A program made the translations under genes and the position numbers. A DNA stretch of 40,150 nucleotides from NCBI GenBank assembly GCA_035550055.1, contig DASZRO010000071.1, forward strand, positions 1 to 40,150, given 5' to 3'. Positions 10,204 to 37,847 of this stretch are shown one piece after another. Under the pieces are notes generated by a model, which did no database searches, was not told the origin of the DNA, and saw nothing but the letters and a program-made list of their open reading frames with translations. Each line of letters opens with the position of its first letter. Position 1 is the stretch's first letter. This DNA comes from Mycobacteriales bacterium. GTDB taxonomy: Bacteria; Actinomycetota; Actinomycetes; JAFAQI01.

Positions 10204-11301
10204 ATGCGAATCGCGCTGACCCACGTCTACTGCTGGCCGGAGGTACGCCGAGGCGCCGAGCGCTACACGCATGAGCTCGCCGCAGGGTTGCGGCGGGCCG
10301 GCCACGACGTGCAGATCCTCAGCACCGCCACCTCGCCGGGGCGCGACGAGGTGCTCGGTGTGCCGGTGCGCCGTTGCCGGCAACGCCGTCAGCTGCGCCG
10401 GTGGTACGGCGCGAGCGCGGAGATGGTCGCCTTCGGCGCCGACGCGTTCGCCCGGCTCGCGGCTCGCCGCCTCGACGTGTGGCACGCGATGTCCGTGGGA
10501 GACGGCGCCGCCGCGGCCTTCGCCGGCAAGCTGCGCCCGGGGCTGCGATCGATCTACACCGAAGTCGGCTTCCCCGCGAAGCAGTCGATCGACCACCGCC
10601 CGGAACGGCGCCTCTACGAATACGTCGTTGCCAACATCGACGAGTTCGTGAGCCTCTCCCCGCCGGCCGGTGAGTTGCTCGAGCAGGGGTACGGCCGGCG
10701 CGGTGAAGTGGTGCCCGGCGGTGTCGACCTCCAGACGTTCGGCCGGGTCGCCGAGCGGCACCCGACCCCGGTGCTGTTGTTCCCCGCGTCGCTGTCGGAG
10801 CCTCGGAAGAACGTCGGCCTCGTCCTGGAGGCAGCGGCCGAGCTCGTCCAGCGAGGTCACCGACTCGAAGTGTGGCTCGTGGGGCCGGGTGAGCTCCCCG
10901 ACGACCTCTCCGAACAAGCCCGCGCCGGGCTGGAGCTCGTGACCACGAGATACACCGCGCGTCCGGACGAGCTTCCTTCGCTCTACTCACAGGCGTGGGT
11001 CACGGTGCTGCCCTCCACCGCGGAGGTGTTCGGCCTCGTGGTTCTGGAGTCACTCGCCTGCGGCACCCCTGCCGTCGTCCTCGACGACGGCCTGGGACCG
11101 GCCGGCATCGTCACCGACGGCGTCGGCGCGAAGTGCCAGCCGGACGCTGCCGACGTAGCCCGAGGTTGTGAGCGCGCTCTCGACATCGCAGCCGCGCCGG
11201 ACGGTGCGCAGCGCTGCCGTGATCGGGCGAGCGACTTCGACTGGGACGGCGTCGTCGTGCCGCGTCTCGTCGCCCTGTATGAAGCGGCTGCGCGTCGATG
11301 A
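10204..11301 (+). CDS. Family 4 glycosyltransferase
   Basis: A 365-residue GT-B protein. The N-terminus MRIALTHVYCWPEVRRGAER contains the glycine/arginine loop that contacts the donor phosphate, followed by HELAAGLRRAGHDV. The C-terminal domain starts near LLFPASLSEPRKNVG, and AEVFGLVVLESLACGTPAVV at about 274-293 is the family signature. The N-terminal 40 residues closely resemble those of the GT4 at 24902 (ILFTHPFFWPHVVRGAER), so the two look like paralogues. ATG at 10204 is 30 bases after the autokinase stop. It overlaps the next GT2 by 4 bases. The sugar is unknown. Confidence 0.87.
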   Translation: MRIALTHVYCWPEVRRGAERYTHELAAGLRRAGHDVQILSTATSPGRDEVLGVPVRRCRQRRQLRRWYGASAEMVAFGADAFARLAARRLDVWHAMSVGDGAAAAFAGKLRPGLRSIYTEVGFPAKQSIDHRPERRLYEYVVANIDEFVSLSPPAGELLEQGYGRRGEVVPGGVDLQTFGRVAERHPTPVLLFPASLSEPRKNVGLVLEAAAELVQRGHRLEVWLVGPGELPDDLSEQARAGLELVTTRYTARPDELPSLYSQAWVTVLPSTAEVFGLVVLESLACGTPAVVLDDGLGPAGIVTDGVGAKCQPDAADVARGCERALDIAAAPDGAQRCRDRASDFDWDGVVVPRLVALYEAAARR

Positions 11302-12236
11302 CCCAGCCGCCGCAGCCGTACTCGCTCACCGTGGCCGTCGTCGTGAAGGACCGCAAGGACTGGATGTCCCGTTGCCTCGACGCCATCGACGAGCAGACCG
11401 GAGCGTCCTTCGACATCGTCGTGGTCGACAACGGTTCGGTGGACGGGACCTACGAGATGCTGCTCGACCGCAGGTCTCGCTGCCGGCACAACCTCACGGT
11501 CCTGCGCGACGACGGCACGCTGGGGCAGATCCGCAACACCGCGCTCGCCGCGGCGACCGGCGAGGTCGTCGCCTTCACCGATTCCGACTGCGTCCCGCGA
11601 CCCGGCTGGCTGGCCGCCGGGCTCGCCGGGTTCGCAACCGGCGTCGCCGCGGTCCAGGGTCGCACCGTCCCGATGCGTGAGGCGCATCCGTGGGAAGCGA
11701 CGATCCAGATCGAGTCCTTCGACCACCGCTACGAGACGTGCAACCTCTTCTACGACCGCAGCGCTTTGCTCGAGCTCGGCGGGTTCGGCGAGACGATGCC
11801 GCAGTTCGGCGAGGACATGGTCGCCGGCTGGCGGCTGCGCCAGGCCGGTTGGTCGGCGGTCTGGGCGGGCGACGCAGTGGTCGAGCACGAGGTGACCTTC
11901 CCGGGGCTGCGCTGGTGGCTGCGACGCGGCCTCCAGTACCACTGCTGGCCCCGGCTGATCCGCGAGTTCCCGGACGCGCGCCACCATCTCTACGGCCGCT
12001 ACTTCCTCAACGGACGGCAGGTCCTCGTCGTAGCCGCGGCGGCGGGCGTGGTCTGCTCGGCGGTGTTGCCGAGCCCGTATCCGCTCCTCGGCGTACTGCC
12101 GCTGTTGTGGCGATGGCGGCCGGTCGCGTTCAGCCGGCGCGGGCTGCGCAACAGCTGCTACGGGATCCTGTTCGACCTCGCGGCGTTCGCCGGCCTGCTG
12201 CGCGGGTCGGTCGCGACCGGCCGCCTGGTCCTCTGA
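11298..12236 (+). CDS. Family 2 glycosyltransferase with C-terminal membrane segment
   Basis: A 312-residue GT-A protein. [13 protein letters not shown] opens the fold, [14 protein letters not shown] is near 42-55, and the metal motif [12 protein letters not shown] is near 93-104. [15 protein letters not shown] near 170 is the catalytic-base region. The last 70 residues hold two hydrophobic stretches ([16 protein letters not shown] and [11 protein letters not shown]), which anchor it to the membrane. ATG at 11298 overlaps the upstream stop (ATGA). The next gene, rmlA, has its own promoter-like box. The acceptor is unknown; the form matches enzymes that extend lipid-linked glycans. Confidence 0.85.
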
Positions 12237-12271: not shown

Positions 12272-13138
12272 ATGAAGGGAATCCTGCTCGCGGGTGGCAC
12301 GGGCTCGCGCCTGTGGCCCATCACGCGGGCAGTGTCCAAGCAGCTCGTGCCGGTCTACGACAAGCCGCTCATCTACTACCCGCTGTGCACGCTGATGCTG
12401 GCCGGGATCAGGGACATCCTCGTGATCACGACGCCGCAGGACGCCGACCAGTTCCGGCGCCTGCTCGGCGACGGCAGCGACCTCGGGCTGCGACTGGAGT
12501 TCGCGGTGCAGCCGAAGCCCGAAGGTCTGGCGCAGGCGTTCCTGATCGGCGCGGACTTCGTCGGCGGCGAACCGGTCGCGCTCGTGCTCGGCGACAACAT
12601 CTTCCACGGCGCCGGCCTCGGCACCGAGCTGTCGCAGCTCGACGTCGACGGCGGCCACATCTTCGCCTACCAGGTCGCGCGGCCGAGCGACTACGGCGTC
12701 GTCGAGCTGGACGCCGACGGCCGACCGGTGAGCATCGAGGAGAAGCCGGTGGCGCCGCGCGGCAGCCACGCGGTGCCGGGCCTGTACTTCTACTCGCCGG
12801 ACGTGGTGGACATCGCCCGCACGCTGCGGCCGAGCGAGCGCGGTGAACTGGAGATCACCGCGATCAACGACGAGTACCTGCGCCAGGGCCGCCTCACGGT
12901 CACCGTGCTCGCCCGCGGCACCGCCTGGCTCGACACCGGAACGTTCGCGAGCCTGGTGCAGGCGTCCGAGTTCGTGCGGGTGATCGAGGAGCGCCAGGGC
13001 CTGAAGGTCGGCTGCCCCGAAGAGGCGGCGTGGCGCAACGGCTGGATCACCGATGACGACCTGCGCGCCCACGCGGAGCAGCTGCGCAAGAGCGGGTACG
13101 GCGAGTACCTGCTGACCCTGCTCGACCGGGCCGGCTGA
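12272..13138 (+). CDS. rmlA: Glucose-1-phosphate thymidylyltransferase
   Basis: A 288-residue enzyme, the usual length of the short RmlA class. It joins dTTP and glucose-1-phosphate to give dTDP-glucose, the first step to dTDP-L-rhamnose. The nucleotide-binding signature [13 protein letters not shown] is at about 6-18, with [17 protein letters not shown] following. The sugar-phosphate and metal site GDNIFHG is near 106-112, and SIEEKP and GLYFYSP follow in the expected order. ATG at 12272 gives the canonical MKGILLAGG start; the frame is open further upstream, but that extension lies inside the GT2 gene and is not used. rmlC follows after six bases. Confidence in family and reaction is high. 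Confidence 0.96.
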
Positions 13139-13144
13139 GGGATC

Positions 13145-13747
13145 GTGGACGTCGAGGCGCTCGACGTGCCGGACGCGTGGGTCTGCCGCCCAACGGTCCA
13201 CGCCGACTCGCGCGGGGACTTCCTGGAATGGTTTCGCGCCGACCTGCTGCGCGCCGCGACCGGGCGTCGCTTCGAGGTGATGCAGGCGAACCATTCGCGT
13301 TCCCGCGCCGGCGTGCTGCGAGGCGTCCACTTCGCCGACGTCGATCCCGGCCAAGCCAAGCTGGTCTACTGCCCGCAGGGCGCCGTCCTCGACGTCGTCG
13401 TCGACGTCCGCGTGGGCTCGCCGACGTTCGGCCGGCACGCGGCGGTGCTGCTCGACGAGACCGAGCGTCGCGCGGTGTTCATCTCCGAAGGCCTCGGACA
13501 CGCCTTCTACGCGCTCCAGGACAACTCGTCGGTCTGCTACCTGATGACGTCGGTCTATGACCCCACCGCCGAGCACGCCGTCTCGCCGGTCGACCCGGCG
13601 CTCGCGCTGCCGCTGCCGACCGAGCACCCGCTCGTCGTCTCGGACCGCGACGCACAAGCGCCGACCCTCGCCGAGGCCGAGGCGGCCGGGACGCTCCCGA
13701 CCTACGAGGCCTGCCGGGCGCGCTACGCCGAGCTCAGCGATGGCTGA
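13145..13747 (+). CDS. rmlC: dTDP-4-dehydrorhamnose 3,5-epimerase
   Basis: A 200-residue cupin that epimerises dTDP-4-keto-6-deoxyglucose at C3 and C5, the third step to dTDP-L-rhamnose. RGVHF places the catalytic His at 62; K72 in QAKLV, H119 in GLGHAFYAL, Y138 in SVYDPTAEH and the SDRD Asp near 169 line up with the known active-site residues of RmlC. The RGVHFADVDPGQAK form is the actinobacterial variant rather than RGLHYQ. GTG at 13145 has GAGGG overlapping the rmlA stop. It overlaps the next GT4 by 8 bases. rmlB and rmlD are 12 and 16 kb away. Confidence 0.94.
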   Translation: MDVEALDVPDAWVCRPTVHADSRGDFLEWFRADLLRAATGRRFEVMQANHSRSRAGVLRGVHFADVDPGQAKLVYCPQGAVLDVVVDVRVGSPTFGRHAAVLLDETERRAVFISEGLGHAFYALQDNSSVCYLMTSVYDPTAEHAVSPVDPALALPLPTEHPLVVSDRDAQAPTLAEAEAAGTLPTYEACRARYAELSDG

Positions 13748-17879: not shown

Positions 17880-18928
17880 GCGACGGCCCGGTACGCCGCG
17901 GCGGTGAGCGCCGCCGTCCGCTGCCAGGTGAGCTCCGCGCTGCGCGCCCGGCCGACGCTGCCCAGGTCGGCGCGCAGCTGAGGATCGCCGGCAACGTCGG
18001 CCAGCGCCTGGGCGAACGCGTGGTCGTCGCCCACCGGGAAGTAGCGCGCCGCGTCGCCGGCGACCTCACGGGAGACGTCGATGTCGCTCGCGACGATCGG
18101 AAGGCCCTCTGCCATCGCCTCGACGAGCGGCAGGCCGTAGCCCTCGATGATGCTGGGAAAGCACAGCGCGGTCGCGCAGCGATACAGCCCCGCGAGGCGG
18201 GCGTCACTGACCCGGCCGAGCAGCTGGACCCGACCGGTGAGTCCGAGCTGCTCGATGAGCCGAGACACCTCCTCGCCGCGGAATCCCATCGGTCCGGCCA
18301 TCACCAGCTGGAGGTCGGCGGCCTCCGGTCGCGCCAGCGCCCGGATCAGCGTCGGGTAGTCCTTGCGGGCGGTGATCTCGCCGACCGCGAGCAGAAAGGG
18401 GCCGGACACGTCCGGAGCGACCACCTCGTCGTAGGACAGCGTCGGCGCCTGCGGGGTGACGCTCACCCGGTCGGCCGGCACGCCGTAGCGTTTCAGCGCC
18501 GCAGCCGTCGCGTGCGACACCGCGAGCACCGCCGCCGCCGACGCCAGCGAGTCGAGCCGGCGCCGGAGCTGGTCGGCGGCGCCGGCCGGGTGAAGGTCGG
18601 GCCGATCCAGGGCGGCGAGGTCGTGGATGGTGGCGACGAGCGGCCGCCGCGTCGGCGGCAGCGCGAGGTCGAGGGAGTGGACGACGTCCGCACCCCCGGC
18701 CAGCGTTTCGGCGCGTGGCCGGCCGACCGAGCGCCACATCGGCTGGACGATCCGCAGCGGCACCCGCAGCCGCCGGGTGCCGGGCGGTGCGGCACCGGGC
18801 CCGCGACCGACCGCGAACCCGCCCACCTCGACGCCTTGCCCTGGCAGCGCCTCAGCCAGCCGGGCGGCGTACCTCGCCACCCCGGTGACGCCGCTGAGAG
18901 TCGGAGTCAGGTCGAGCGCGACCTTCAC
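17876..18928 (-). CDS. Family 4 glycosyltransferase
   Basis: A 350-residue GT-B protein. VKVALDLTPTLSGVTGVARY opens the protein, with the donor loop SGVTGVARYAA. VATIHDLAALDRPDLHPAG is the central segment, and FLLAVGEITARKDYPTLIRA starts the C-terminal domain near 200. EGYGLPLVEAMAEGLPIVAS is the signature near 274-293. GTG at 18928 overlaps the stop of the upstream acetyltransferase gene (GTGA, 18925-18928). The frame stays open further upstream, but only as an antisense-like extension inside that gene. It is the second gene of the five-gene minus-strand operon. Confidence 0.87.
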   Translation of the reverse strand: MKVALDLTPTLSGVTGVARYAARLAEALPGQGVEVGGFAVGRGPGAAPPGTRRLRVPLRIVQPMWRSVGRPRAETLAGGADVVHSLDLALPPTRRPLVATIHDLAALDRPDLHPAGAADQLRRRLDSLASAAAVLAVSHATAAALKRYGVPADRVSVTPQAPTLSYDEVVAPDVSGPFLLAVGEITARKDYPTLIRALARPEAADLQLVMAGPMGFRGEEVSRLIEQLGLTGRVQLLGRVSDARLAGLYRCATALCFPSIIEGYGLPLVEAMAEGLPIVASDIDVSREVAGDAARYFPVGDDHAFAQALADVAGDPQLRADLGSVGRARSAELTWQRTAALTAAAYRAVA

Positions 18929-19611
18929 CGCGCGCCGGTCTCGACCGCGAGAGCCCGGATGGGTTTGGCCGGAACGCCGGCAACCAGCCAGCCCGCATCG
19001 ACGTCGGTGGTCACGACGGCGCCGGCGCCGACGAACGCCCCGTCTCCGATCGTCGTGCCGCTCGCGACCACGACGTGTGCACCCATCCAGATGTTGCGCC
19101 CGATCGACACGGGCGCCGTGGTCACCGCGTCGTGGATGGGTTCGTCGGCGGCGGTCCGCAGGTGCCGGGAGTCGGCGATGGTCGTGTACTCGCCGATGAT
19201 CGTCATGTCGCCGACCTCGACCCGCTCCGCGCAGTGCACCTGCATCCCGGTCGACATCACGCACCCGGCGCCGATCCGCAGCACCCCGTCGACCTGATAG
19301 GTCCCGAACCGGCGAAGGTCGCTTCGCTCACCGATCTCGAGCTCGCCGCCGCGCAGCGACAGCCGTACGGCGTCGCCGATCTGCGCGCCTTTGCCGATGG
19401 TCAGCCGGCTGGTCGTCGAGGGCCAGACGTCGATGACGACCGACCGCGAGATCGAGACGTCTCGATGGACGTCGAGCACCACGGTGCTGCCCTGCCACGA
19501 CGCGGCGAGGCGCACCCGCCGGCGGAACCTGCGGACTCTGCGTCGGGCCACCACGACGTCGATCGCACGCGAAAGCTTGACCCGACGCGCTCGCAGACCC
19601 TCGGGCAGCAC
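18925..19611 (-). CDS. Hexapeptide-repeat (left-handed beta-helix) acetyltransferase
   Basis: A 228-residue protein with a basic N-terminal 40 residues and then a long run of hexapeptide turns. These include LTIGKGAQIGDAV, LRIGAGCVMSTGMQV and VEVGDMTIIGEYTTI. The catalytic region comes later, with the His of SRHLRT and the coil VSIGRNIWMGAHVVVASG to VTTDVDAGWLVAGVPAKPI. This end is typical of the WcaF/NodL/maltose O-acetyltransferase group, which use acetyl-CoA. It probably acetylates a sugar of the polymer before export. GTG at 19611 lies eight bases from a TAGATT box and begins MLPEGLRARRVK. The frame continues upstream but crosses the divergent sulfotransferase gene, so it is not used. It heads the five-gene operon. 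Confidence 0.82.
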   Translation of the reverse strand: MLPEGLRARRVKLSRAIDVVVARRRVRRFRRRVRLAASWQGSTVVLDVHRDVSISRSVVIDVWPSTTSRLTIGKGAQIGDAVRLSLRGGELEIGERSDLRRFGTYQVDGVLRIGAGCVMSTGMQVHCAERVEVGDMTIIGEYTTIADSRHLRTAADEPIHDAVTTAPVSIGRNIWMGAHVVVASGTTIGDGAFVGAGAVVTTDVDAGWLVAGVPAKPIRALAVETGAR

Positions 19612-19680: not shown

Positions 19681-21000
19681 GTGGGTGAGGAACGCGCGTC
19701 GCTGTCCGTCGTGCGGCGCACTGTCAGCCAGCTCGCCGCGGCGGCGCACACCCGGCACAGCGCACCGTTCGATCCCGCCGGCAGCCCGTGGTTCGAACGC
19801 GCCATCTTCGTCACCGGCGCACCGCGAAGCGGCACCAGCTGGCTCCATCAGATGCTGACGACGCACCCCGACGTCGCGACCGCGGGCGAGATGCACGCGT
19901 TCTGCGAAGGACTCGGCGGCATCTTCGCCAACTTCGACTCCGCCGACCCGTACATGAACCTCTCCACGTGGGTCACCCGGGCCGAGCTGCTGACCCTCGC
20001 TCGCGAGTTCGTCGACGGCGTGCTCACCGCGGCGACCAGGAACGGCCAGGAGAACGCCACCCGGGTCCTGGACAAGACGCCCAACCACGCGCAGAGCGCC
20101 GCCCTGCTCGCCGAGGTCTATCCCGACGCGACGTTCGTGCAGATCATCCGCAACCCGCGCGACGCCATCAGCTCGGCACGGGACCTGTGGAGCGGGTGGA
20201 ACGCGCGGCTTCGCGACTGGTCGGCGAGCGCGGCGGACTGGTGCGCGACGGTGGCTGACTGTCGTACGCACCTCGGGCCGCTGCGCTATCACGAGGTGCG
20301 CTACGAGGATCTGCTCGCCGAACCCGTCCCGACGCTGACCGCGATCATGGCGGCCGTCGGGCTGCGTCACGACGAAGCGTTCGTCGCCGACGTGGTGGAG
20401 TTCAGCAAGGCGCCGGTCAACGTCCGGCCGTCGGATCCGCGGATCTCCGCCGACAAGTGGTCGGACATCGAAGCGGACGCCGAGCAGCAGATCGTGGACG
20501 TCGCGGGCGATCTGATGGTGGAGCTCGGCTACCTCGACGAGGCGTCGCGAGCGGCGATCCTCGCCCGCCGATCCGCGCGGCGCACCGCGGTCACGCTCGG
20601 CCGGCGCGGCGTGCGCGCCGCCCAGTCGGCCGGGCGGCGTACCAGCACTGCCGGCCTCGCGGCGGCCCAGCGGTTGCGCAACCGGCAGACGTCCGGCGCG
20701 GTCATGACGGTGACGCGCGAGGTGATCGCCGCAGCGACCGCGGGCGACGAGCCCGGCGTACGCCGGTTGCTCGCACCCTCCGCCGAGCTGCGCACCGCCG
20801 ACGGCGTCACCCACGGCTCCCTCGCCGTCGCCGCCGGACTGTGCGCGGCACTCAAGGACGCCCAGGTCATCCCGTTCGTCGCCGACGAGACGGCCGCCGC
20901 CGTCGAGGTGGTGCGGCCCGACTCGCCGCGCATCCACCAACGGTTCTATGTCTCCGATGGCCGCGTCGAGAAGGTCATCGTCGAAGGCTCCGCCTCGTGA
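19681..21000 (+). CDS. PAPS-dependent sulfotransferase with C-terminal NTF2/SnoaL-like domain
   Basis: A 439-residue protein that probably moves sulfate from PAPS to a glycan hydroxyl. The 5'-phosphosulfate loop GAPRSGTSWLHQML is at 46-59 and the 3'-phosphate motif IIRNPRDAISSARDLW near 156-171; LDKTPNHAQ and VRYEDLLAEP lie between and after, as in bacterial sulfotransferases. This catalytic part ends near 300. A basic linker follows (RRSARRTAVTLGRRGVRAAQ). The region from about 341 (VMTVTREVIAAATAGDEPGV) to the end looks like an NTF2/SnoaL fold, an unusual attachment. GTG at 19681 is chosen; the divergent acetyltransferase starts 70 bases away. It overlaps the SGNH gene by 4 bases. Confidence 0.83.
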   Translation: MGEERASLSVVRRTVSQLAAAAHTRHSAPFDPAGSPWFERAIFVTGAPRSGTSWLHQMLTTHPDVATAGEMHAFCEGLGGIFANFDSADPYMNLSTWVTRAELLTLAREFVDGVLTAATRNGQENATRVLDKTPNHAQSAALLAEVYPDATFVQIIRNPRDAISSARDLWSGWNARLRDWSASAADWCATVADCRTHLGPLRYHEVRYEDLLAEPVPTLTAIMAAVGLRHDEAFVADVVEFSKAPVNVRPSDPRISADKWSDIEADAEQQIVDVAGDLMVELGYLDEASRAAILARRSARRTAVTLGRRGVRAAQSAGRRTSTAGLAAAQRLRNRQTSGAVMTVTREVIAAATAGDEPGVRRLLAPSAELRTADGVTHGSLAVAAGLCAALKDAQVIPFVADETAAAVEVVRPDSPRIHQRFYVSDGRVEKVIVEGSAS

Positions 21001-21800
21001 CGAACGCGCCGAAGAAGATCGCGGAGGGGATCGTCGACCAGCCGATGCGGATCGTCGTGGGCGGCTCGAGCTGCTCGGTCCTGGTCTCGCCGCCGCGCAC
21101 CCGGCGCGACGAGGGGACCTACGGCGAGCTGTTGCCGCGGCTGTTGCGCCGGCACGGCGTCGTGGCGACGACGATCCACGAGGGTCACTGGTTCGGGATG
21201 GTCAACGAGTTCCGGCCGCGCTACGAGAACCATCTGCGCAACCACTTCCCGGACGTCCTCATCATCAACTACGGCTTCGCCGAGTGCGAGCCGAACTTCC
21301 TGCCGTACTGGCTCGCCCGGCACTTCTCGACCTGGGACCTGTCGTCCGCGGCGATCCCGACCGGCTACCGGCGCTACCTCGCCCCGAGGTTGTGGCGGAT
21401 CGCGCGCTTCTATCAGCGTCAGGCCTCCCGGCTGACGAGCAACCATTCGTTCCGCGTGTCCCCCCGGCGGTTCGTCGCCGACATGCGACGCATCATCGAG
21501 ATGGCGCGGACGGAGACCGGGTGCCTGGTCCTCGTGCTCGACATCGATCCGCCCGGCGAGCGGCTGCAGTACTGGATGCCGGGCATGTGGCAGCGCTGGG
21601 AGCGTTACCAACTCCTGCTGGAGAAGCTGGTCGCCGACTTCGACGACCCGGAGGTCCGGCTGATCCCGAACTCGCGCAGCATCTTGGACGAGCTGGGCTT
21701 CGAAGTCGGCGAGCCTGACGGCATCCACCGCAGCGCGATCGGGCATGCGCGGACCGCCGAGGTGCTCACCGCCGAGATCATGAGCTGGCTCGACAGTTGA
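20997..21800 (+). CDS. SGNH/GDSL-like hydrolase
   Basis: A 267-residue protein. MRIVVGGSSCSVLV near 17-30 resembles block I of SGNH hydrolases, with Ser24 the likely nucleophile in a changed GDS motif. IINYGFAECEPN near 89-100 sits where block III Gly/Asn residues occur. DGIHRSAIGHARTAEVL from 241 is a clear block V with Asp241 and His244. Members remove or transfer acetyl groups on polysaccharides, or hydrolyse esters. No signal peptide is seen, so it is probably cytoplasmic and may act as a transferase during assembly. GTG at 20997 lies in the stop of the sulfotransferase gene, and its own end overlaps the next GT2. Family placement is moderately sure; the reaction is not. Confidence 0.72.
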   Translation: MTNAPKKIAEGIVDQPMRIVVGGSSCSVLVSPPRTRRDEGTYGELLPRLLRRHGVVATTIHEGHWFGMVNEFRPRYENHLRNHFPDVLIINYGFAECEPNFLPYWLARHFSTWDLSSAAIPTGYRRYLAPRLWRIARFYQRQASRLTSNHSFRVSPRRFVADMRRIIEMARTETGCLVLVLDIDPPGERLQYWMPGMWQRWERYQLLLEKLVADFDDPEVRLIPNSRSILDELGFEVGEPDGIHRSAIGHARTAEVLTAEIMSWLDS

Positions 21801-22759
21801 GCTACCGAGTGAGCGTCGCGGTGTCGACGTACAACCGGCCCGACCGGGTCGCGCGGCTGCTGTCGGCGCTGGCGGCTCAGACGCTGCCGGCCGGGGAGTT
21901 CGAGGTCGTGCTCTACGACGACGGCTCGCCTGCCGAGGCGCTGGCCACCGTGCGTGAGCTCGTCGCGGGCGTGGCGTATCCGTTGCGGCTCATCGAGGGC
22001 GGGGTCAACCGCGGGCCGGCGACCGGCCGCAACGAGGCGTGGCGCGCGACGACAGCGCCGATCGTCGCGTTCACCGATGACGACTGCGTGCCCACCCCGG
22101 ACTGGCTTCGCAACGGACTGACCGCGTTCGAGGATCCGGCGGTGCACGTCGCCGTCGGCCGGATCGACCCGGCACCTGACCAGCTGCACCTGCTCGGCCC
22201 GTTCTCCCGGACGATGTACGCCAGCGACGCGCGGTTCTTCGCCACCGCCAACTGCATCTACCGGCGGGCGGCACTCGACACGGCGGACGGCTTCGACGAG
22301 CGCTTCCGGCGCGCCGCCGGCGAGGACACCGACCTCGGGCTGCGGGTGCTCGCCGCGGGCGGACAGGTGAGGTACGTCGACGAGGCCGTCGTCCACCACG
22401 ACGTGCGGCCGAGCAGCCTGCGAGCGGCGGCGCGCGACGCCGGCGGGAAGTGGATCGACCTCGCGCTCGTCATCCGCAAGCATCCGCGAGTACGTCGCGA
22501 GCTGATGTACCGGCGGATCTTCTGGAAGAAGCCGCATGCCCTGCTGTTGCTGGCGCTCGCCGGAGTGATCGCCGCACCGTGGGAGCCGCTCACGCTCGTC
22601 GCGCTCATCCCGTACCTGTGGCACCGGCTGCGTACCGCGCCCGTCACCCGCGGCCGGATGCGCCGGTTCGCGACCTTTCCCGGGGCGCTGCTGATCGACG
22701 CGATCGAGATCGTGACGATGATCCGCAGCGGGCTTCGCTACCGGACCTTCGTCCTCTGA
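21797..22759 (+). CDS. Family 2 glycosyltransferase with C-terminal membrane segment
   Basis: A 320-residue GT-A protein. VSVAVSTYNRPDRVARLL opens the domain, VVLYDDGSPAEAL is near 37-49 and the metal motif FTDDDCVPTPDWL near 93-105. GEDTDLGLRVLAAGG near 175 is the catalytic-base region. A hydrophobic stretch near 247-276 (ALLLLALAGVIAA) anchors the C-terminus. The start is either TTG at 21797, overlapping the SGNH stop as TTGA, or GTG at 21809; the first is chosen for the coupling. Its stop codon forms the base of a hairpin shared with the convergent ABC transporter gene. The acceptor is unknown, but co-translation with the sulfotransferase suggests the same glycan. Confidence 0.85.
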   Translation: MSYRVSVAVSTYNRPDRVARLLSALAAQTLPAGEFEVVLYDDGSPAEALATVRELVAGVAYPLRLIEGGVNRGPATGRNEAWRATTAPIVAFTDDDCVPTPDWLRNGLTAFEDPAVHVAVGRIDPAPDQLHLLGPFSRTMYASDARFFATANCIYRRAALDTADGFDERFRRAAGEDTDLGLRVLAAGGQVRYVDEAVVHHDVRPSSLRAAARDAGGKWIDLALVIRKHPRVRRELMYRRIFWKKPHALLLLALAGVIAAPWEPLTLVALIPYLWHRLRTAPVTRGRMRRFATFPGALLIDAIEIVTMIRSGLRYRTFVL

Positions 22760-22778
22760 CCGGGACGACGCCCGGTCA
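22757..22778. terminator. Bidirectional terminator hairpin made from two stop codons
   Basis: TGACCGGG (22757-22764) and CCCGGTCA (22771-22778) form a perfect 8-bp stem around a 6-base loop, ACGACG. The first TGA is the stop of the plus-strand GT2 and the final TCA is the stop, on the other strand, of the Wzt gene. The hairpin therefore fills the entire 16-base gap plus both stops. No T-tract follows on either strand, so a factor-independent role is uncertain. Confidence 0.55.
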
Positions 22779-23990
22779 CTGCTCGACGAGCTGGCTCGAC
22801 ATGACCGAGCCGTTGATCGTGATCCGCGCGCCGAGGTCCGTCGTACCGAACGCCTTGCTCGTCGACTTGACGTAGAACGACTCGAACGTGCTGCGACCGA
22901 GCAGCGTCCGGTCGACGTCGAAGACCTCTGCGTGCACCGTGTAGCTGCGGGTGAGCAGGCGGTTGTCCATCTCGATGGTGGCGACCAGCGGTCGGCCCGG
23001 GCCGTGCTCGCCTCGGTAGTCGCCGGGAAGGGTGAACACCGACATGGCGAGGTCGTGGCCGTCGGCCGGCCGGATCGCCAGGCCGATGCACGGGTCGCGG
23101 GTCACTTCGGAGAACTCGATCGTGACGACGACGGAGAACGGCTGACCCGACACCAGGCTGCGGGTGGATTCGCCGTCGGAGTCGCGCAGGTCGATCCCGA
23201 CATCAGCTCGCCCGAGCGCCACCTGCCCGTCGTCGGACGGGGCGGGGTCGTCCTCCACGTCGCGGATCGCGGACAGGATCTTGTGGTACTCGCCGACCGC
23301 CTCCACCGAGTCGCCGTCGAAGACCAGCGACCCGCGGGAGAGCACCATCGCGCGCTTGGCCATCTTCGCGGCCAGGTTGAGGTTGTGGGTCACGAGTACG
23401 ACGGTCGTGCCGCCCTCGCGCATCGCCCGGATCCGCTCGTTGCACTTGGCCTGGAAGGCGGCGTCGCCGACCGCGAGGATCTCGTCCAGCACCAGCAGCT
23501 CGGGGCTCGTGTGGACGGCAACCGAGAAGCCGAGCCGCAGGAACATCCCCGACGAGTAGAACTTCACCGGCGTATCGAGATAGGCCTCGAGCTCGCTGAA
23601 CGCGACGATGGAGTCGAAGGCCCGGTTGACCTGGTCGGCGCTGAGGCCGAGCAACCGAGCGTTGACGAAGACGTTCTCGCGGCCGGTCAGCTCCGGGTTG
23701 AAGCCGACCCCGATGCCGATGAGCGGCGCCACACTGCCTTCGACCCGCAAGTGACCGGACGTGGGCGCCGACACGCCCGCCAGCAGCCGCAACGTGGTCG
23801 TCTTGCCCGACCCGTTCGCTCCGATGATCGCGACGGTCTCACCGCGCTCGACCTCGAACGACACGTCGCGCAACGCCCACACCTCGGTGAGCCCCTGCCG
23901 CCGACGCGGCACCAACCGGGACAGCAGCGTCGCCTCGTGGCCCAGCACGTAGCGCTTGCTGACGTTCTCGAACCGAATCGCCTTGCTCAT
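22776..23990 (-). CDS. wzt: ABC exporter ATPase with C-terminal glycan-binding domain (Wzt-like)
   Basis: A 404-residue protein that powers export of lipid-linked polysaccharide with the Wzm permease. Walker A GANGSGKTT is at 57-65. The signature is the Wzt/TagH variant YSSGM at 145-149 rather than LSGGQ. Walker B LLVLDEILAVGD is at 165-176 and the switch His is in VTHNL near 202. After about residue 245 comes a beta-rich Wzt_C-like domain, which in known systems reads a chain-end modification (ADVGIDLRDSDGES and AEVFDVDRTLLGRSTFESFY). ATG at 23990 (MSKAIRFENVSKRY) is preferred; GTG at 24017 would overlap the permease by 14 bases. Confidence 0.92.
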   Translation of the reverse strand: MSKAIRFENVSKRYVLGHEATLLSRLVPRRRQGLTEVWALRDVSFEVERGETVAIIGANGSGKTTTLRLLAGVSAPTSGHLRVEGSVAPLIGIGVGFNPELTGRENVFVNARLLGLSADQVNRAFDSIVAFSELEAYLDTPVKFYSSGMFLRLGFSVAVHTSPELLVLDEILAVGDAAFQAKCNERIRAMREGGTTVVLVTHNLNLAAKMAKRAMVLSRGSLVFDGDSVEAVGEYHKILSAIRDVEDDPAPSDDGQVALGRADVGIDLRDSDGESTRSLVSGQPFSVVVTIEFSEVTRDPCIGLAIRPADGHDLAMSVFTLPGDYRGEHGPGRPLVATIEMDNRLLTRSYTVHAEVFDVDRTLLGRSTFESFYVKSTSKAFGTTDLGARITINGSVMSSQLVEQ

Positions 23991-24003
23991 CCGTGCCGGC
24001 CGC

Positions 24004-24852
24004 TCATAGCCGGTCACACGCCAGCCGTTCGAACTTGGAGTAGGCGAAGATCGCGCCGATCGAAAGCACGACCGACCAGGCGACCGCGCTCAGCACGGGC
24101 AGCGCCAGCGGGTCGGTGCCGTTGGCGGCGAACGACCATCGCGCCAACTCGATCACGCCGGCGCCGGGGTTGATCTCCGCGATCGTCCGCAGCCGGTGCG
24201 AGGGAATGAGAGTGAGCGGGTAGATGATCGGCGACGCGTAGAGCAACGCCTGCAGGGCCGCCACCACGAAGTACTTGATGTCGCGGAAGTAGACGTTGAG
24301 CAGCGCGAGCAGCGATCCGACGGCGTAGGCCGTCGCGGCCGCGAGCACCGCGACCAGGGGGTAGGCGACGAGATGCCACGTCGGGTCGACGCCCAGGATC
24401 GCGCCGATCGGCACGATCACGAGCAACCCGGCCATCAGACCGGGGACGCCGGCGAGGATCGGTACGCCGGGCAGGAACAGGCGGGGGAAGTAGACCCGCC
24501 CGGCCACGTCCGCCTGGTCGACGATCGACGTGGTCGCGTTGTTCACCGCAGTCGTGATGTAGGTCCAGGTCGTCATGCCGACGAGCACGAAGACCGGATA
24601 GTCCGCACTCGTCTGCACCCGCACCAGATGGGTGAACACGATGGCGAGGATCGAGCCCTGGATCAGCGGGAGCAGGACCGCCCACACCAGCCCGAGCCGG
24701 GTGCTGCGGTAGCGCGAGCGGAAGTCACGTGCCGCGAGCATCTGGAGCAACGAGATGCGGCGTACGTAGTCGGCGAGCAGGTCGCGGATGGGGGTGCGCT
24801 CGCCGGTGAGCTCGAGGACGGCTGTCGACGGTTCCACCGCATCCACCGCCAC
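24004..24852 (-). CDS. wzm: ABC exporter permease of polysaccharide (Wzm-like)
   Basis: A 282-residue ABC-2 type membrane protein with six predicted helices, such as LGLVWAVLLPLIQGSILAIV, VFVLVGMTTWTYITT, LMAGLLVIVPIGAIL and VLSIGAIFAYSKF. The segment LLQMLAARDFRSRYRSTRLG before the first helix is the cytoplasmic coupling region typical of Wzm/TagG. YFRDIKYFVVAALQALLYAS and SPIIYPLTLIP near the end are also family hallmarks. GTG at 24852 stands six bases from a TACGCT box, which supports this start; an open frame continues upstream into the divergent GT4 gene and is not used. The ATPase gene follows after 13 bases. Confidence 0.92.
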   Translation of the reverse strand: MAVDAVEPSTAVLELTGERTPIRDLLADYVRRISLLQMLAARDFRSRYRSTRLGLVWAVLLPLIQGSILAIVFTHLVRVQTSADYPVFVLVGMTTWTYITTAVNNATTSIVDQADVAGRVYFPRLFLPGVPILAGVPGLMAGLLVIVPIGAILGVDPTWHLVAYPLVAVLAAATAYAVGSLLALLNVYFRDIKYFVVAALQALLYASPIIYPLTLIPSHRLRTIAEINPGAGVIELARWSFAANGTDPLALPVLSAVAWSVVLSIGAIFAYSKFERLACDRL

Positions 24853-24901: not shown

Positions 24902-26011
24902 ATGGAGGATGACATCCGCATCCTCTTCACCCACCCGTTCTTCTGGCCGCACGTGGTGCGCGGCGCCGAGCGAGAGATCCACGATCTCGGTGCTCGGCTC
25001 GTCTCACGCGGCCATGAAGTCAGTCTGCTGACGACCCAGCCGTCCGGACTCACGGCGCGGGCGGAGCGCTCGGGCATCCGGGTCCGCTATGTCCGTGTGC
25101 CGCACCGCCGGGGCCGGGCTCCGGGAGACGGGCTCGACCAGACCGCAACGTTCGCGGCGCTCGCTGCCGCGGGCAGCGCGCTCTCGCGCGCGGAGGTCAT
25201 CCACTGCTGGCATTACGCCGACGCGGCTGCAGTCGTGCGACGTGGCCGGCCGGCGGTCACCAAGATCACCGGCAGCGTCACGCCGGAGCTGATGAGCCGC
25301 AGCCCGCTGCACGAGCGGCTGATGCTGCGCGCACTCGCCCGGATGGACGAGGTGTGGTGCAACAGCGAGTGGGCCCGGGCGCAGATGGTCGGGTTCGGGC
25401 GTGACATGGGGATCGTTCCCGCCGGCGTCGACCGCGGCCGCTTCACTGCGCAAGCGGATCGCGCCAGCCGCCCGACGGTGCTGTCGACCTGCGCTCCCGA
25501 AGACCCCCGCAAGCGGCTGGTGGACCTGCTCGACGCGTGGCCGCGAGTCCTCGCGCAGGTACCTGAGGCACAGCTGCGGCTGGCCGGCGCAGCGTCAGAG
25601 CAAACCCGGGCGGCGCTGCTCGACCGGGTGCCGGAAGCCGCCCGGGAGTCGATCGCGTTCCTCGGGCCACTCGACGACGACCATCTGGTGGCGGAGTACT
25701 CCAGCGCCTGGACCTCGGTCATGCCCGCGGTGTTGGAGGCCTTGGGGTTGTCGACCATCGAGTCGCTCGCCTGCGGCACTCCGGTCGTCGGGGCGGACTC
25801 GGGCAACACCCCCGCCCTGCTGAGCCACCCGCACACCGGACGGACCTTCGAAGCCGCCCACCCGGAGTCGTTGGGCGCCGCGATCGTCGACCAGCTGGCC
25901 GCGACCGACCAAGTCGACCGGGCCGCCTGTCGCGCCGCGACCGACGCCTTCGACTGGGAGCACATCACCGACCTGGTCGAAGCCGGGTATTCGCGAATCG
26001 CCGCCCACTGA
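24902..26011 (+). CDS. Family 4 glycosyltransferase
   Basis: A 369-residue GT-B protein. Its start DIRILFTHPFFWPHVVRGAE is very close to that of the GT4 at 10204, which makes them probable paralogues. VIHCWHYADAAAVVRRG and ITGSVTPELMSRSPLHERL lie in the N-terminal domain, and VLSTCAPEDPRKRLVDLLDA opens the C-terminal domain near 195. VLEALGLSTIESLACGTPVV near 280-299 is the donor signature, with an extra Leu where EVFGL is usual. ATG at 24902 is chosen. It is a single gene between wzm (divergent) and rmlB (same strand, own promoter). The sugar is unknown. Confidence 0.86.
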   Translation: MEDDIRILFTHPFFWPHVVRGAEREIHDLGARLVSRGHEVSLLTTQPSGLTARAERSGIRVRYVRVPHRRGRAPGDGLDQTATFAALAAAGSALSRAEVIHCWHYADAAAVVRRGRPAVTKITGSVTPELMSRSPLHERLMLRALARMDEVWCNSEWARAQMVGFGRDMGIVPAGVDRGRFTAQADRASRPTVLSTCAPEDPRKRLVDLLDAWPRVLAQVPEAQLRLAGAASEQTRAALLDRVPEAARESIAFLGPLDDDHLVAEYSSAWTSVMPAVLEALGLSTIESLACGTPVVGADSGNTPALLSHPHTGRTFEAAHPESLGAAIVDQLAATDQVDRAACRAATDAFDWEHITDLVEAGYSRIAAH

Positions 26012-26033: not shown

Positions 26034-26039
26034 GTGACG

Positions 26040-27023
26040 GTGCGGCTTCTCGTGACTGGCGGCGCAGGCTTCATCGGGTCGCACTTCGTCCGGACGCTGC
26101 TCGCGGACGGCTACCCGGCGTACGCCGGCGCGAACGTCACCGTGCTCGACAAGCTCACCTACGCCGGCACCCTCACCAACCTGACCGAGGCCGAGCGCAA
26201 CCCCCGGTACCGGTTCGTGCACGGCGACATCCTCGACGGCGACCTGCTGCGCGAGCTGGTGCCCGGTCACGACGCCGTGGTGAACTTCGCCGCCGAGTCC
26301 CACGTCGACCGATCCATCGTCGGCGCCGCCGACTTCATGACGACCAACGCGGTCGGCGTGCAGACGCTGCTCGACGCGTGCCGGCACGCGAAGGTCGAGC
26401 GAGTGCTCCAGGTGTCCACCGACGAGGTCTACGGCTCGATCGCGGAAGGCGCGTTCCGCGAGACCGACCTGCTCGAGCCGAGCTCGCCGTACTCCGCCTC
26501 GAAGGCGGCCGGGGACCTGATCGCCCGCGCCTACGTGACCACCCACGGCATGGACGTCGTGGTGACGCGCTGCACGAACAACTACGGGCCGCACCAGTTC
26601 CCGGAGAAGATCATCCCGCTGTTCGTGACCAACCTGATCGACGGGCTGCGCGTGCCGCTGTACGGCGACGGGGGCAACGTGCGGGACTGGCTCCACGTCG
26701 ACGACCACTGCCGCGCCGTCACGGCGGTGCTCGACCGCGGCCGGACCGGCGAGATCTACAACATCGGCGGCGGCACGGCGTTGGACAACCGCGAGCTGAC
26801 CGAACGACTACTCGCGGCATGCGGCCGCGACTGGTCGTCGGTGGAGATGGTCGAGGACCGCAAAGGCCATGACCGGCGCTACGCCATCGACGACTCGAAG
26901 ATCCGCGACGAGCTCGGCTACTGCCCGCAGGTCGGCTTCGACGACGGCCTCGCCGCAACCATCGCGTGGTACCACGCCAACGAGGACTGGTGGCGGCCGT
27001 TGAAGTCGAGGGACGCACGGTGA
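26040..27023 (+). CDS. rmlB: dTDP-glucose 4,6-dehydratase
   Basis: A 327-residue extended short-chain dehydrogenase that turns dTDP-glucose into dTDP-4-keto-6-deoxyglucose, the second rhamnose step. MRLLVTGGAGFIGSHFV carries the NAD loop. NFAAESHVDRSI is near 85, VSTDEVYGS near 125 has the catalytic Thr-Asp-Glu, and YSASKAAGD near 150 has the Tyr and Lys. NNYGPHQFPEKIIP is the sugar-binding signature of RmlB. GTG at 26040 is preferred to GTG at 26034 because of the promoter spacing and because family members begin MRLLVTGG. It overlaps the next methyltransferase by 4 bases and lies far from rmlA and rmlC. Confidence 0.96.
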   Translation: MRLLVTGGAGFIGSHFVRTLLADGYPAYAGANVTVLDKLTYAGTLTNLTEAERNPRYRFVHGDILDGDLLRELVPGHDAVVNFAAESHVDRSIVGAADFMTTNAVGVQTLLDACRHAKVERVLQVSTDEVYGSIAEGAFRETDLLEPSSPYSASKAAGDLIARAYVTTHGMDVVVTRCTNNYGPHQFPEKIIPLFVTNLIDGLRVPLYGDGGNVRDWLHVDDHCRAVTAVLDRGRTGEIYNIGGGTALDNRELTERLLAACGRDWSSVEMVEDRKGHDRRYAIDDSKIRDELGYCPQVGFDDGLAATIAWYHANEDWWRPLKSRDAR

Positions 27024-29680: not shown

Positions 29681-30574
29681 GTGACGACCTGGCTGGTGAC
29701 GGGCGCCGGCGGGGCACTGGGTCGCGATCTGATGGCCGTGCTGACGGCAGCCGGGTCCGACTCGGCGACCGGTCTCGACCGTCACGCGCTGGACATCACC
29801 GATCGCAGTGCCGTCGAGGAAGCGCTGACGGCGCATCGACCCGACGTGGTGATCAACGCTGCGGCCTACACCCGGGTCGATGACGCCGAGACCGACGAGC
29901 GCACCGCCGCCGCCGTCAACGGCGCCGGGCCGGGCCATCTCGCGCGATGGTGCGCGGCCAACCGGGCCCGCCTCGTGCACGTGTCGACCGACTACGTGTT
30001 CACCGGCGAGGCGAGCTCGCCGTACGAGACGGACAGCCCCACCGGTCCGGCCAGCGCCTACGGGCGCACCAAGCTCGCCGGTGAGCAAGCCGTGCTCGAC
30101 GCCGGTGGCGACGGCCACGTGGTGCGGACCGGTTGGCTCTACGGCGAGCACGGGCCGAGCTTCGTCAGGAGCGTCGGTGGCCGGCTGATCGCGGGGGACC
30201 CGGTCGACGTCGTCGACGACCAGCGAGGCGCTCCCACCTGGACCAGGCACCTTGCCGAGCGTCTGGTGTCGCTGGGAGGCGCGCCGGTGCCGCCCGGTGT
30301 ACGGCACTGCTCGTCGGCCGGCGAGGCGAGCTGGTACGACGTCGCCGTGCAGCTGGCGGTCCTGCTCGGCCGAGACCCGGCTCAGGTTCGCCCGACGACG
30401 TCGGCGGCGATGGCCCGCCCGGCGCCGCGGCCGGCGTACTCCGTGCTGTCCAGCGCCAGCTGGACCTCAGCCGGGCTGCCGGCGATGCCGGACTGGCGGG
30501 ACTCGCTCAGCGAGGCGGTGTCCGCGCTCGGCGAGCGTCTGGTGGGTCCGCTGCCGGGCGCGGCGCGGCGCTAG
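29681..30574 (+). CDS. rmlD: dTDP-4-dehydrorhamnose reductase
   Basis: A 297-residue short-chain dehydrogenase that reduces dTDP-4-keto-L-rhamnose to dTDP-L-rhamnose, the last step. WLVTGAGGALGRDLMAVL near 4-21 is the NAD(P)H loop. VVINAAAYTRVDDAETD near 53-69, VHVSTDYVFTGE near 97-108 and SAYGRTKLAGEQ with Tyr and Lys near 125-137 follow in the RmlD order. VVRTGWLYGEHGPSFVRSV and the DQRGAPTWTRHLAE segment are specific to RmlD. GTG at 29681 gives the normal length; the frame is open to 29630 but without a better start. Its TAG stop shares CTAG (30571-30574) with that of the convergent hydrolase gene. Confidence 0.95.
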   Translation: MTTWLVTGAGGALGRDLMAVLTAAGSDSATGLDRHALDITDRSAVEEALTAHRPDVVINAAAYTRVDDAETDERTAAAVNGAGPGHLARWCAANRARLVHVSTDYVFTGEASSPYETDSPTGPASAYGRTKLAGEQAVLDAGGDGHVVRTGWLYGEHGPSFVRSVGGRLIAGDPVDVVDDQRGAPTWTRHLAERLVSLGGAPVPPGVRHCSSAGEASWYDVAVQLAVLLGRDPAQVRPTTSAAMARPAPRPAYSVLSSASWTSAGLPAMPDWRDSLSEAVSALGERLVGPLPGAARR

Positions 30575-32727
30575 GTCGAGGCGGTGTAGTAGCAGACCGG
30601 ATCGGTCTGGCCCAGCCCGACTCCGGGCAGGTAGGCCACCGCCGTCCACTCGCTGTGGGTCAGGCCGGCGGCGAGCGGCGGCGAGGTGGCGATCCCGTTG
30701 CTGTCGGTGGTCGCCGTGGCAGTGGTCGCGGTGCCGCCGCTGAAGTGGGCGCCGCTCGACGACGGAATCAGGAAGGTGACCGGCGTGTCGACGAGCGGGT
30801 TGCCGTACTGATCGGTCGCCAGCGCTGCCAGCGGCGAACCCGCTGGGACCACGCGGCTGCTGCCGGGCTGGGGCAGCAGCCGCGTCGGCGTGGGCGAGCC
30901 GCTCGGCGCGGGCGCCTCTGTCAGGGACAGGTCGCCGCTCGCCGGCCAAGCCCCCGACGTCTGGTTCGGGCGCACCGTGAGGAAGTACGCCTCACCGTCG
31001 CCGAAGGCCGGGATCGCGACGCTGGCGATCCCGTTCGTCACGGGAACCGTCGACGTCGTGGTCGCCGGCGCGGTCTTCTCGTCGCTGATCGAGTCCGGGA
31101 TCTCCTGGACCGAGACGCTCGCCGAGGTGGCGTCGCCGGGAAGCGCGACCTGCACGGTGGTCGGCACCGGCGCCGGTGCGGACGCCGGCCCGGCGCAGTA
31201 GGAGGCTCCGGTGGTCGCCCGGGAGCACGTCTGGTGGCGACCCAGCAGCACCCGCGTCGTACCGGTGTCGCTGGTGACGGCGAGCGAGCTCAGGTCGGTG
31301 TCGTTGCTCTCCGACTCGACCCGGTCACCCGTCATCGTCGCGTAGTCGACCATCGTCCAGTAGCTCGGGTTGGGGACACCGTCGGCGTTGAGCAGCTCGT
31401 CGAGGTTCGGGGCGTTGCACACGTTCGCGACCCCGCCGCCCGGGTACTGCCAGCACGAGCGGTTCGCCTCGTCGATCCCGGCGCGGTCCTCGGCGGCCAC
31501 GTATCCCGCCGCGAAGCCCGGGATGAACTGCCCCGCCGCCGAGCTGTTCTCGTCGGCGAACAGCAGCGGCGTGCCGATCCCCGGGTTCTCCGCGATCAGC
31601 TCGCGGACCGTCTCGGCCTGGTCGCGAAGCGTCTCGGGCATCTCGTCGTAGGAGACCGGGTTCTGGTCGAGGGTGTCGTAGTTGTCGTGCCACGCGATCG
31701 CGTAGAGCTGCATCCCGTTGGCCGCGGCGAACGGGATGAACGACTTCAGGTCGATGTACCAAGGCGACGTCGAGCTCTCGTACTGCCAGTCGATCGACGG
31801 GCCGATCACCCGGGCGTCGGGGTCGACGCCCTTGATCGCCTTGTAGGCCTTGAGGTACTCCTGCTCGACGAGCGCCCGGGTCGGCGGCTGCGACGTGCTG
31901 TAGGGGTAGTTCTCCGGCTCGTTCTGGATCTCCCAGATCGGGTCACGGCCGGCGTCCACCGCGTTCTTGACGACGCGGGCGATGAAGTTCTTGTACTTCT
32001 GCCAGTCGCTCCACGGGTCCACGGCGGCGGTCCCGACGTGGTTGCTCGCCAGCCAGGCGTCGGACAGCGACTCGATGATGTCGGTGTCGCCGACGACTGC
32101 GGCGGCCTGCTTGTACTGGGTCGGATTGCCACCCTGGATCCGCCAGTGCTGAAGGTCGAGCGCCCCCACCCACTTGTTGTTGATCGGGACCGTCCCGGAC
32201 AGCAGCCCCGCGCCCGGGTGCTGCTCGGCGCCGAGCTGGTCGGCCGAGTCGACCACGACGCAGTCCCCGACCAGGCTCAGCGAACAGTGCGAGCTCGTGG
32301 CGGTGACCGTCCCGGTCGCGTTGTACGGGCCAGCTGGTCCTGAGGTGTCGCCGCTGCCGTCGGGGCCGATCGGGGTGACCGTGAAGTAGACGGGATGGTT
32401 GAGCGGGAGGTCGTCCCACGTGAGCGAGGTTGCGGACGCCGCAGCCAGTCGAGTACCGAAGTCCGGCCAGGCCATGTTGAAGTAGTCGCCGCGATGCGCC
32501 TCCACCTGGTAGCGGGCGACCGTGCCGCTCACCGGCGGCTGCCAGGAGATCGTCGCGACGTCGCCGGTCACCGAGGCGACCAGGTCCCGCACCGGCGAAA
32601 GCGCCGGATCGGCCGAGGCAGCGCTCGCACCCGCCCCTCCCACGCACAGCACCGCGAGGACCACGAACAGCCGTGAGAGCCGGCGGACGAACGATTGCGA
32701 AGGGGCCCTGCTGGGAGCGCTGCGCAC
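30571..32727 (-). CDS. Secreted multidomain glycoside hydrolase (clan A-like) with Fn3 and Ig-like domains
   Basis: A 718-residue protein. Residues 1-38 form a signal peptide (basic SFVRRLSRLF, then LFVVLAVLCVGGAGASAASA). A fibronectin-III-like domain covers about 43-135. The catalytic region covers about 150-500 and looks like a TIM barrel of the GH5/GH39 kind: EIQNEPENYPY places the acid/base Glu at 270, and LLFADENSSAAG places the likely nucleophile at 393. A second beta domain follows, and residues about 620-705 (VVPAGSPLAALATDQYGNPL) resemble a bacterial Ig-like (Big_1) fold. It may trim or release the polymer outside the cell, as PslG does in the Psl system. GTG at 32727 has AGAGAGGA five bases upstream. 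The stop overlaps that of rmlD. Confidence 0.8.
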   Translation of the reverse strand: MRSAPSRAPSQSFVRRLSRLFVVLAVLCVGGAGASAASADPALSPVRDLVASVTGDVATISWQPPVSGTVARYQVEAHRGDYFNMAWPDFGTRLAAASATSLTWDDLPLNHPVYFTVTPIGPDGSGDTSGPAGPYNATGTVTATSSHCSLSLVGDCVVVDSADQLGAEQHPGAGLLSGTVPINNKWVGALDLQHWRIQGGNPTQYKQAAAVVGDTDIIESLSDAWLASNHVGTAAVDPWSDWQKYKNFIARVVKNAVDAGRDPIWEIQNEPENYPYSTSQPPTRALVEQEYLKAYKAIKGVDPDARVIGPSIDWQYESSTSPWYIDLKSFIPFAAANGMQLYAIAWHDNYDTLDQNPVSYDEMPETLRDQAETVRELIAENPGIGTPLLFADENSSAAGQFIPGFAAGYVAAEDRAGIDEANRSCWQYPGGGVANVCNAPNLDELLNADGVPNPSYWTMVDYATMTGDRVESESNDTDLSSLAVTSDTGTTRVLLGRHQTCSRATTGASYCAGPASAPAPVPTTVQVALPGDATSASVSVQEIPDSISDEKTAPATTTSTVPVTNGIASVAIPAFGDGEAYFLTVRPNQTSGAWPASGDLSLTEAPAPSGSPTPTRLLPQPGSSRVVPAGSPLAALATDQYGNPLVDTPVTFLIPSSSGAHFSGGTATTATATTDSNGIATSPPLAAGLTHSEWTAVAYLPGVGLGQTDPVCYYTAST

Positions 32728-37818: not shown

Positions 37819-37833
37819 TGCGAAGTGTCGGGG

Positions 37834-37839
37834 TAGCGT
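37834..37839 (+). promoter_or_regulatory. Candidate -10 box of the sulfotransferase at 37848
   Basis: TAGCGT is followed by eight bases and GTG at 37848. The box lies within the 29-base gap after the previous sulfotransferase, so the two genes may have separate promoters. Confidence 0.45.
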
Positions 37840-37847
37840 GAAAGGCC

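Follow-up and report, generated by a model that had tools for sequence, protein, structure and literature searches.

Organization of the trio

What might be made by a sulfotransferase (ST), an SGNH-fold protein and a family 2 glycosyltransferase (GT2) encoded by three overlapping genes is the question raised by a 40,150-nt stretch of contig DASZRO010000071.1 from a Mycobacteriales bacterium (assembly GCA_035550055.1); this whole stretch is referred to below as the window. The answer that we consider moderately probable is that the trio is the part of a cytoplasmic glycan-assembly module in which the glycan is decorated. In such a module, glycosyltransferases of families GT4 and GT2, including the enzyme at 21797-22759, would build a glycan on the cytoplasmic side of the membrane. 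Sulfate from 3′-phosphoadenosine 5′-phosphosulfate (PAPS) would be placed by the ST on one sugar of this glycan, and another hydroxyl would gain an acyl group (or, with lower probability, lose one) through the SGNH-fold protein. The decorated glycan, probably containing rhamnose, would leave via the adjacent Wzm/Wzt ABC transporter.

All three open reading frames (ORFs) were found at the positions given in Table 1, were coding by codon and third-position GC (GC3) statistics, and overlapped by 4 bp each (GTGA at 20997-21000 for ST/SGNH and TTGA at 21797-21800 for SGNH/GT2), as reported in a preliminary description of this DNA. Exact 4-bp overlaps were observed in 9 of the 22 codirectional gene pairs of the window. 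Being ordinary there, they indicate an operon and do not single out the trio; the overlaps were therefore rejected as its special feature, and the "fixed co-production" formerly read from them went too far. The TTG start of the GT2 gene is uncertain, with an in-frame GTG at 21809 (MSVAVSTYNRP) as the alternative, in which case the second overlap would be gone. The GT2 matched PF00535 in Pfam (E = 7e-25), and hydropathy analysis gave two hydrophobic stretches near its C-terminus (residues 248-271 and 291-309), in line with the membrane segments expected for it. No hydrophobic N-terminal stretch was detected by hydropathy in the SGNH-fold protein or the ST, in agreement with the earlier view that the former lacks a signal peptide.

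Conservation of the module in related genomes

The set of three genes was also found at locus L026 (genome G010/G398), in another genus of the same family, within a seven-gene operon GT4-GT2-GT2-SGNH-ST-Wzm-Wzt joined by overlaps of 4 or 1 bp. Homologues of all seven genes are present in the window, where they lie in two groups (10204-12236 and 19681-24852) and the order of the trio is reversed. The ST of L026 is 44% identical to that of the window over 414 aa, and the window ST found this genome at 2.5e-100 as against 7.7e-37 for the next genome in the family, so that it is the clear counterpart. A tree of close SGNH relatives separated type A, including the window protein (fork 90/88), from type B (fork 100/99), and the SGNH protein of L026 is a type B paralogue, not an orthologue of the type A protein of the window. 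Confinement to the source strain, which the preliminary description had said would count against a functional unit, was thus not observed.

At L022, L023 and L025, an SGNH(A)-SGNH(B) pair comes after the same GT4-GT2-GT2 series, and the locus has no ST. The contig of L024 starts within the SGNH pair, the glycosyltransferase part being cut off, and this locus is likewise devoid of an ST. After the pair, a GT4 gene and then Wzm-Wzt follow in L022, L023 and L024; the L025 contig ends before this point. Two SGNH genes without an ST were present in 4 of the 6 loci having close GT2/SGNH relatives, and the two ST-linked loci carry the same kind of ST together with type A without B (window) or type B without A (L026). 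As judged from sequence, the conserved core is GT2-SGNH plus an ABC exporter, the ST standing in for one SGNH, and this swap in a single operon slot looks like an evolutionary exchange. Genomes with tandem SGNH genes have 1, 1, 0 and 0 PF13469 genes, as compared with about 6, 7 and 6 (split hits merged) in G000, G398 (L026) and G399 (L027).

At L027, from a sister species in the window's genus, an SGNH gene next to Wzt-Wzm overlaps by 4 bp the gene for an ST that belongs to a different family, PF17784 (E = 3e-60). That SGNH and sulfation share one pathway is best supported by this recurrent pairing, in which two ST families are involved. Of the earlier proposal of a single decoration module, the part that stood is that ST, SGNH and GT2 are kept together near a glycan exporter in another genus; the ST itself lies outside the conserved core.

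Sulfotransferase and supply of PAPS

The ST matched PF13469 (E = 7e-38; 131.5 bits against a 27-bit cut-off) and contains the PAPS-binding loop GAPRSGTSWLHQ at residues 46-57, KTP at 132-134 and the 3′-phosphate motif IIRNPRD at 155-161, all three being conserved among relatives, GAPRSGT and IIR..RD included. Its solved relatives are tyrosylprotein sulfotransferases, which were aligned with it, and CurM-type sulfotransferases. Since the full model was poor (predicted local distance difference test score, pLDDT, of 54; alignment of 2), the assignment of the core rests on sequence. The C-terminal part (residues ~331-439) showed good local confidence despite the poor overall model and matched NTF2/ketosteroid-isomerase/SnoaL folds (best Z 13.7; root-mean-square deviation, rmsd, 2.6 over 106 residues); the added C-terminal domain noticed before is therefore present and has an NTF2/SnoaL-like fold. 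A known catalytic domain was rejected for this part, as the sequence is poorly conserved (27%) and a domain search of 394 genomes of the class found the fusion only in the window and G010. The domain is missing from a related ST encoded on contig C29 of the window's own genome.

Contig C29 also carries CysD (over cut-off), CysN, an inositol-monophosphatase-family (CysQ-like) gene and adenosine 5′-phosphosulfate (APS) kinase, and the absence of PAPS genes, formerly named as an argument against sulfation, does not hold. APS kinase was found in 10 of 12 genomes of the family. The profile, the PAPS loop, the 3′-phosphate motif and the PAPS supply in the genome characterize the protein as a predicted PAPS-dependent sulfotransferase. 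Upstream of the CysD-CysN-CysQ-like genes, C29 contains a second glycan cluster, Wzm-Wzt-ST-GT2/methyltransferase in 4-bp overlaps (L018:7095-11870 and L019:2951-10066), and its APS kinase gene is flanked by two homologues of the acyltransferase-3 gene of the window.

SGNH-fold protein

In Pfam, the SGNH-fold protein matched PF13472 weakly and under the cut-off (E = 0.006). Its AlphaFold (AF2) model, based on an alignment with 14 relatives, had a pLDDT of 85 and matched solved structures with Z up to 22.8 (1yzf, rmsd 2.4 over 187 residues). The matches comprised SGNH/GDSL esterases, thioesterases, carbohydrate acetylesterases and an acyltransferase, the nearest being mostly carbohydrate acetylesterases and other GDSL esterases (Axe2, Est24, CE2/CE3); no solved structure closely related in sequence was found (best E 7e-4). 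S25 and D241-x-x-H244 were invariant in 14 sequences and G54 nearly so. Block III (window 21273-21284) reads G93-F-A95-E96, with the oxyanion Asn replaced; the position is Ala or Gly in all type A proteins, and type B keeps Asn (GxNE). With the flavodoxin-like SGNH fold, Ser and Asp/His present and the block III Asn missing, the protein was assigned to an atypical SGNH-fold subfamily and not to canonical SGNH hydrolases. The residue differences between the two types may mark divided functions. In some type B members, the PDG of PDGxH varies as well (PDSMH, LDAMH).

The family is rare, occurring in 11 of the 394 genomes, in three families. Searches of plasmids and of viral contigs gave no relatives and hence nothing that points to a mobile or phage element, and such an origin was rejected. 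This discrete subfamily is one for which no described function was found in the literature.

Distant SGNH relatives (f27; L014, L052 and L053) adjoin an operon of left-handed β-helix (LbH) acetyltransferase, methyltransferase, small protein, acyl (AMP-binding) ligase and FabG-like reductase, the methyltransferase being noted for L014 and L052. In L014 and L053, the SGNH and reductase genes share 4 bp, and an opposite-strand gene intervenes in L052. The small protein, of 83-85 aa, passed the cut-off of the phosphopantetheine-binding (PP-binding) family only in L053, the L014 protein staying below it; that it is an acyl carrier is likely, not proven. The LbH/ligase/reductase/SGNH operon looks like a sugar-acylation cassette. 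These acyl-ligase operons, the analogy with OctT (see below) and the exchange with an ST, which suits two group-adding enzymes sharing one slot, lead us to favor acyl transfer over hydrolysis for the window protein. The preliminary description had allowed for acyl transfer or removal; transfer, having gained support from the operons of distant relatives, is the likelier of the two.

The protein could instead be a cytoplasmic O-acyl or O-acetyl esterase trimming esters set by the neighboring LbH acetyltransferase, in the way that the NeuA esterase domain and NanS trim esters on sialic acids. This alternative, which we regard as rather unlikely, is retained in view of the esterases that head the fold matches and of the adjacent LbH gene (18925-19611); LbH genes also lie near the SGNH module in L023 and L025, and a weakly similar one in L028. 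However, the fold matches also cover thioesterases and an acyltransferase, acyl-activating genes stand beside the distant relatives, and the ST loci have a sulfate-adding enzyme in place of one SGNH. Moreover, OctT, an actinobacterial cytoplasmic SGNH acyltransferase, has undetectable esterase activity (PMC4555173).

Putative export and sugar supply

Wzm/Wzt genes are linked to the glycosyltransferase module in the window, L022, L023, L024 and L026. The Wzt of the window contains a Wzt_C domain (E = 4e-8); Wzt_C was over cut-off in L022 and L026 also, and the Wzt of L027 gave no Wzt_C match. With all four Rml genes and gmd in the window (Table 1), a rhamnose-like 6-deoxyhexose is a plausible acceptor. 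6-Deoxyhexoses are likely building blocks of the glycan of this locus, and we infer that the trio acts on them.

Glycoside hydrolase genes occur adjacent to or near the module at L022:7531-8832 and L026:12295-13638 (GH5-type) and in the window at 30571-32592 (weak GH39-type). Two more sulfotransferase genes (PF00685/PF13469) lie in tandem at 37006-38696 of the window, followed by a gene (38825-40102) for a protein with eight transmembrane segments and no Pfam match, possibly Wzx or Wzy.

Table 1. Features of the trio, its neighborhood and related loci (window coordinates unless a locus is given)
Feature	Position	Strand	Remarks
Sulfotransferase, PF13469	19681..21000	+	439 aa, GTG start
SGNH-fold protein, type A	20997..21800	+	267 aa, GTG start, cytoplasmic
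GT2 glycosyltransferase	21797..22759	+	320 aa, TTG start; DDD and GED motifs
Wzt-type ABC ATPase with Wzt_C (carbohydrate-binding type)	22776..24017	-	Convergent; L026 homologue in the trio's operon
Wzm-type ABC-2 permease	24004..24852	-	
LbH (hexapeptide) O-acetyltransferase	18925..19611	-	Divergent neighbor of trio
GT4	10204..11301	+	Counterpart of first gene of conserved module (L022, L023, L025, L026)
GT2	11298..12236	+	Counterpart of second gene of conserved module
GT4	24902..26011	+	46-50% identical homologue between SGNH pair and Wzm in L022, L023, L024
RmlA, glucose-1-phosphate thymidylyltransferase	12272..13138	+	TIGR01207 over cut-off
RmlC-type epimerase	13145..13747	+	PF00908, E 6e-55; TIGR01221 just under cut-off
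RmlB, dTDP-glucose 4,6-dehydratase	26034..27023	+	TIGR01181 over cut-off
RmlD, dTDP-4-dehydrorhamnose reductase	29681..30574	+	TIGR01214 over cut-off
Acyl-ligase/SGNH operon	L052:1716-7758		
Acyl-ligase/SGNH operon	L053:3025-7665		
Acyl-ligase/SGNH operon	L014:9609-14373		
SGNH + PF17784 sulfotransferase pair	L027:9971-11511		

Alternative explanations

Several points weigh against a joint role of the trio in decorating an exported glycan. Because STs abound in the glycan loci of these genomes (3 genes among ~37 in the window), adjacency of an ST is weak evidence when taken alone; most relatives' loci lack an ST, and further STs in the genome could serve the window glycan. No APS kinase turned up in G010 (86% complete) or in G001. 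Catalysis by the type A protein is uncertain with the block III Asn missing, the SGNH members in acyl-ligase operons are only ~25-30% identical to the window protein, and the literature yielded no biochemical data for family members. Finally, a Wzy-like ligase/polymerase, a bacterial tyrosine kinase (BY-kinase) and phosphoglycosyltransferases (PGTs) are encoded in the window, making a Wzx/Wzy route possible in place of the presumed ABC route.

It is unlikely that the three genes are mere neighbors in a hypervariable polysaccharide locus, with the ST serving another glycan and the linkage incidental. Such an explanation would suit the scattering of window glycosyltransferase genes over both strands, the reversed order relative to L026, the different SGNH types of the two ST loci and the loci that have no ST. 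On the other hand, ST and GT2 with SGNH between them have remained linked although their identity is down to 36-44% and their order has changed, the third locus (L027) couples SGNH with an ST of a different family, and ST genes number 0-1 in tandem-SGNH genomes as against 6-7 in ST-linked ones.

Decidedly doubtful is the idea that ST and SGNH are interchangeable, group-adding occupants of one slot in a conserved actinobacterial module for ABC-exported glycans, the added sulfate or acyl group being a chain-end mark read by Wzt_C. By analogy, a cap, already considered in the preliminary description, would be compatible with the neighboring Wzt_C domain, and if the idea were true, a single-gene swap would change the cap.

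That the product is no polymer and is a small sulfated, acylated oligosaccharide or glycolipid, a Nod-factor- or sulfolipid-like signal, is highly improbable: the part list resembles Nod factor synthesis, and NCBIfam matched the ST to NoeE only and the Wzt to NodI (in each case far under the cut-off), but the Pfam results for the window include no NodA/NodB-type genes, and the many glycosyltransferases, PGTs and Wzz/BY-kinase genes indicate a polymer.

Comparison with known systems

Similar parts are used in Nod factor decoration, in which NodH/NoeE, NodL, NodC, NodIJ and NodPQ provide ST, LbH acetyltransferase, GT2, ABC-2 exporter and PAPS supply, respectively; it differs from the proposed decoration module in having no SGNH protein. 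Membership in Nod factor biosynthesis was rejected on the NCBIfam nodulation models, which scored far under cut-off in this case (NoeE 41 bits vs 500, NodC 37 vs 550, NodI 95-99 vs 424-549).

In ABC-dependent O antigen export through Wzm/Wzt with terminal modification, a domain of the Wzt_C kind reads the modified chain end (PMC9445017). The Wzt_C domain of the window Wzt is a likeness to that system; the Gram-positive host is a difference, and a cap or terminal modification is hypothetical for the window glycan. OctT (Rv2418c), the mycobacterial octanoyltransferase of the SGNH superfamily, transfers an acyl group from acyl-CoA to a glycan precursor (PMC4555173). It was likened to the window protein by description and, unlike it, keeps Ser, Gly, Asn and His; an OctT-type acyl-CoA:sugar acyltransferase activity may be proposed for the window protein by analogy.

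The wps-1 cluster of Actinoplanes missouriensis encodes a methyltransferase, a glycoside hydrolase (GH26) and a pair of predicted STs that belong to different families; both ST genes are required for normal sporangium formation, and the extracellular polysaccharide is predicted to be sulfated (PMC13390465). Its route is Wzx/Wzy, its description names neither an SGNH protein nor an ABC transporter, and the presence of sulfate is a prediction, not a chemical finding. The capsule of Vibrio sp. KMM 8419 contains, in a verified structure, sulfated and acetylated rhamnose, Rha3S4Ac (rhamnose 3-sulfate 4-acetate), and its cluster resembles the window in having dTDP-Rha genes, glycosyltransferases, STs, an ABC transporter and PAPS genes (PMC11641403). 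The comparison is by kinds of genes and not by orthology, the capsule is that of a Gram-negative bacterium, and the term SGNH is absent from the text.

A combination of ST, SGNH and GT2 was not found described in the literature searched, most subscription papers lying outside the search. The parts are of known kinds; what seems to be undescribed is the conserved set and the swap of sulfate- and acyl-handling enzymes within one slot. Documentation of sulfated polysaccharides is sparse for actinobacteria, where the 2026 study of A. missouriensis gave a prediction without chemical proof (PMC13390465), and the module is predicted to be a compact set of genes with which uncultured relatives of Frankiales from soil make a glycan bearing sulfate and acyl groups. 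Among known systems, the KMM 8419 capsule is the nearest structure-verified case and wps-1 the nearest actinobacterial one.

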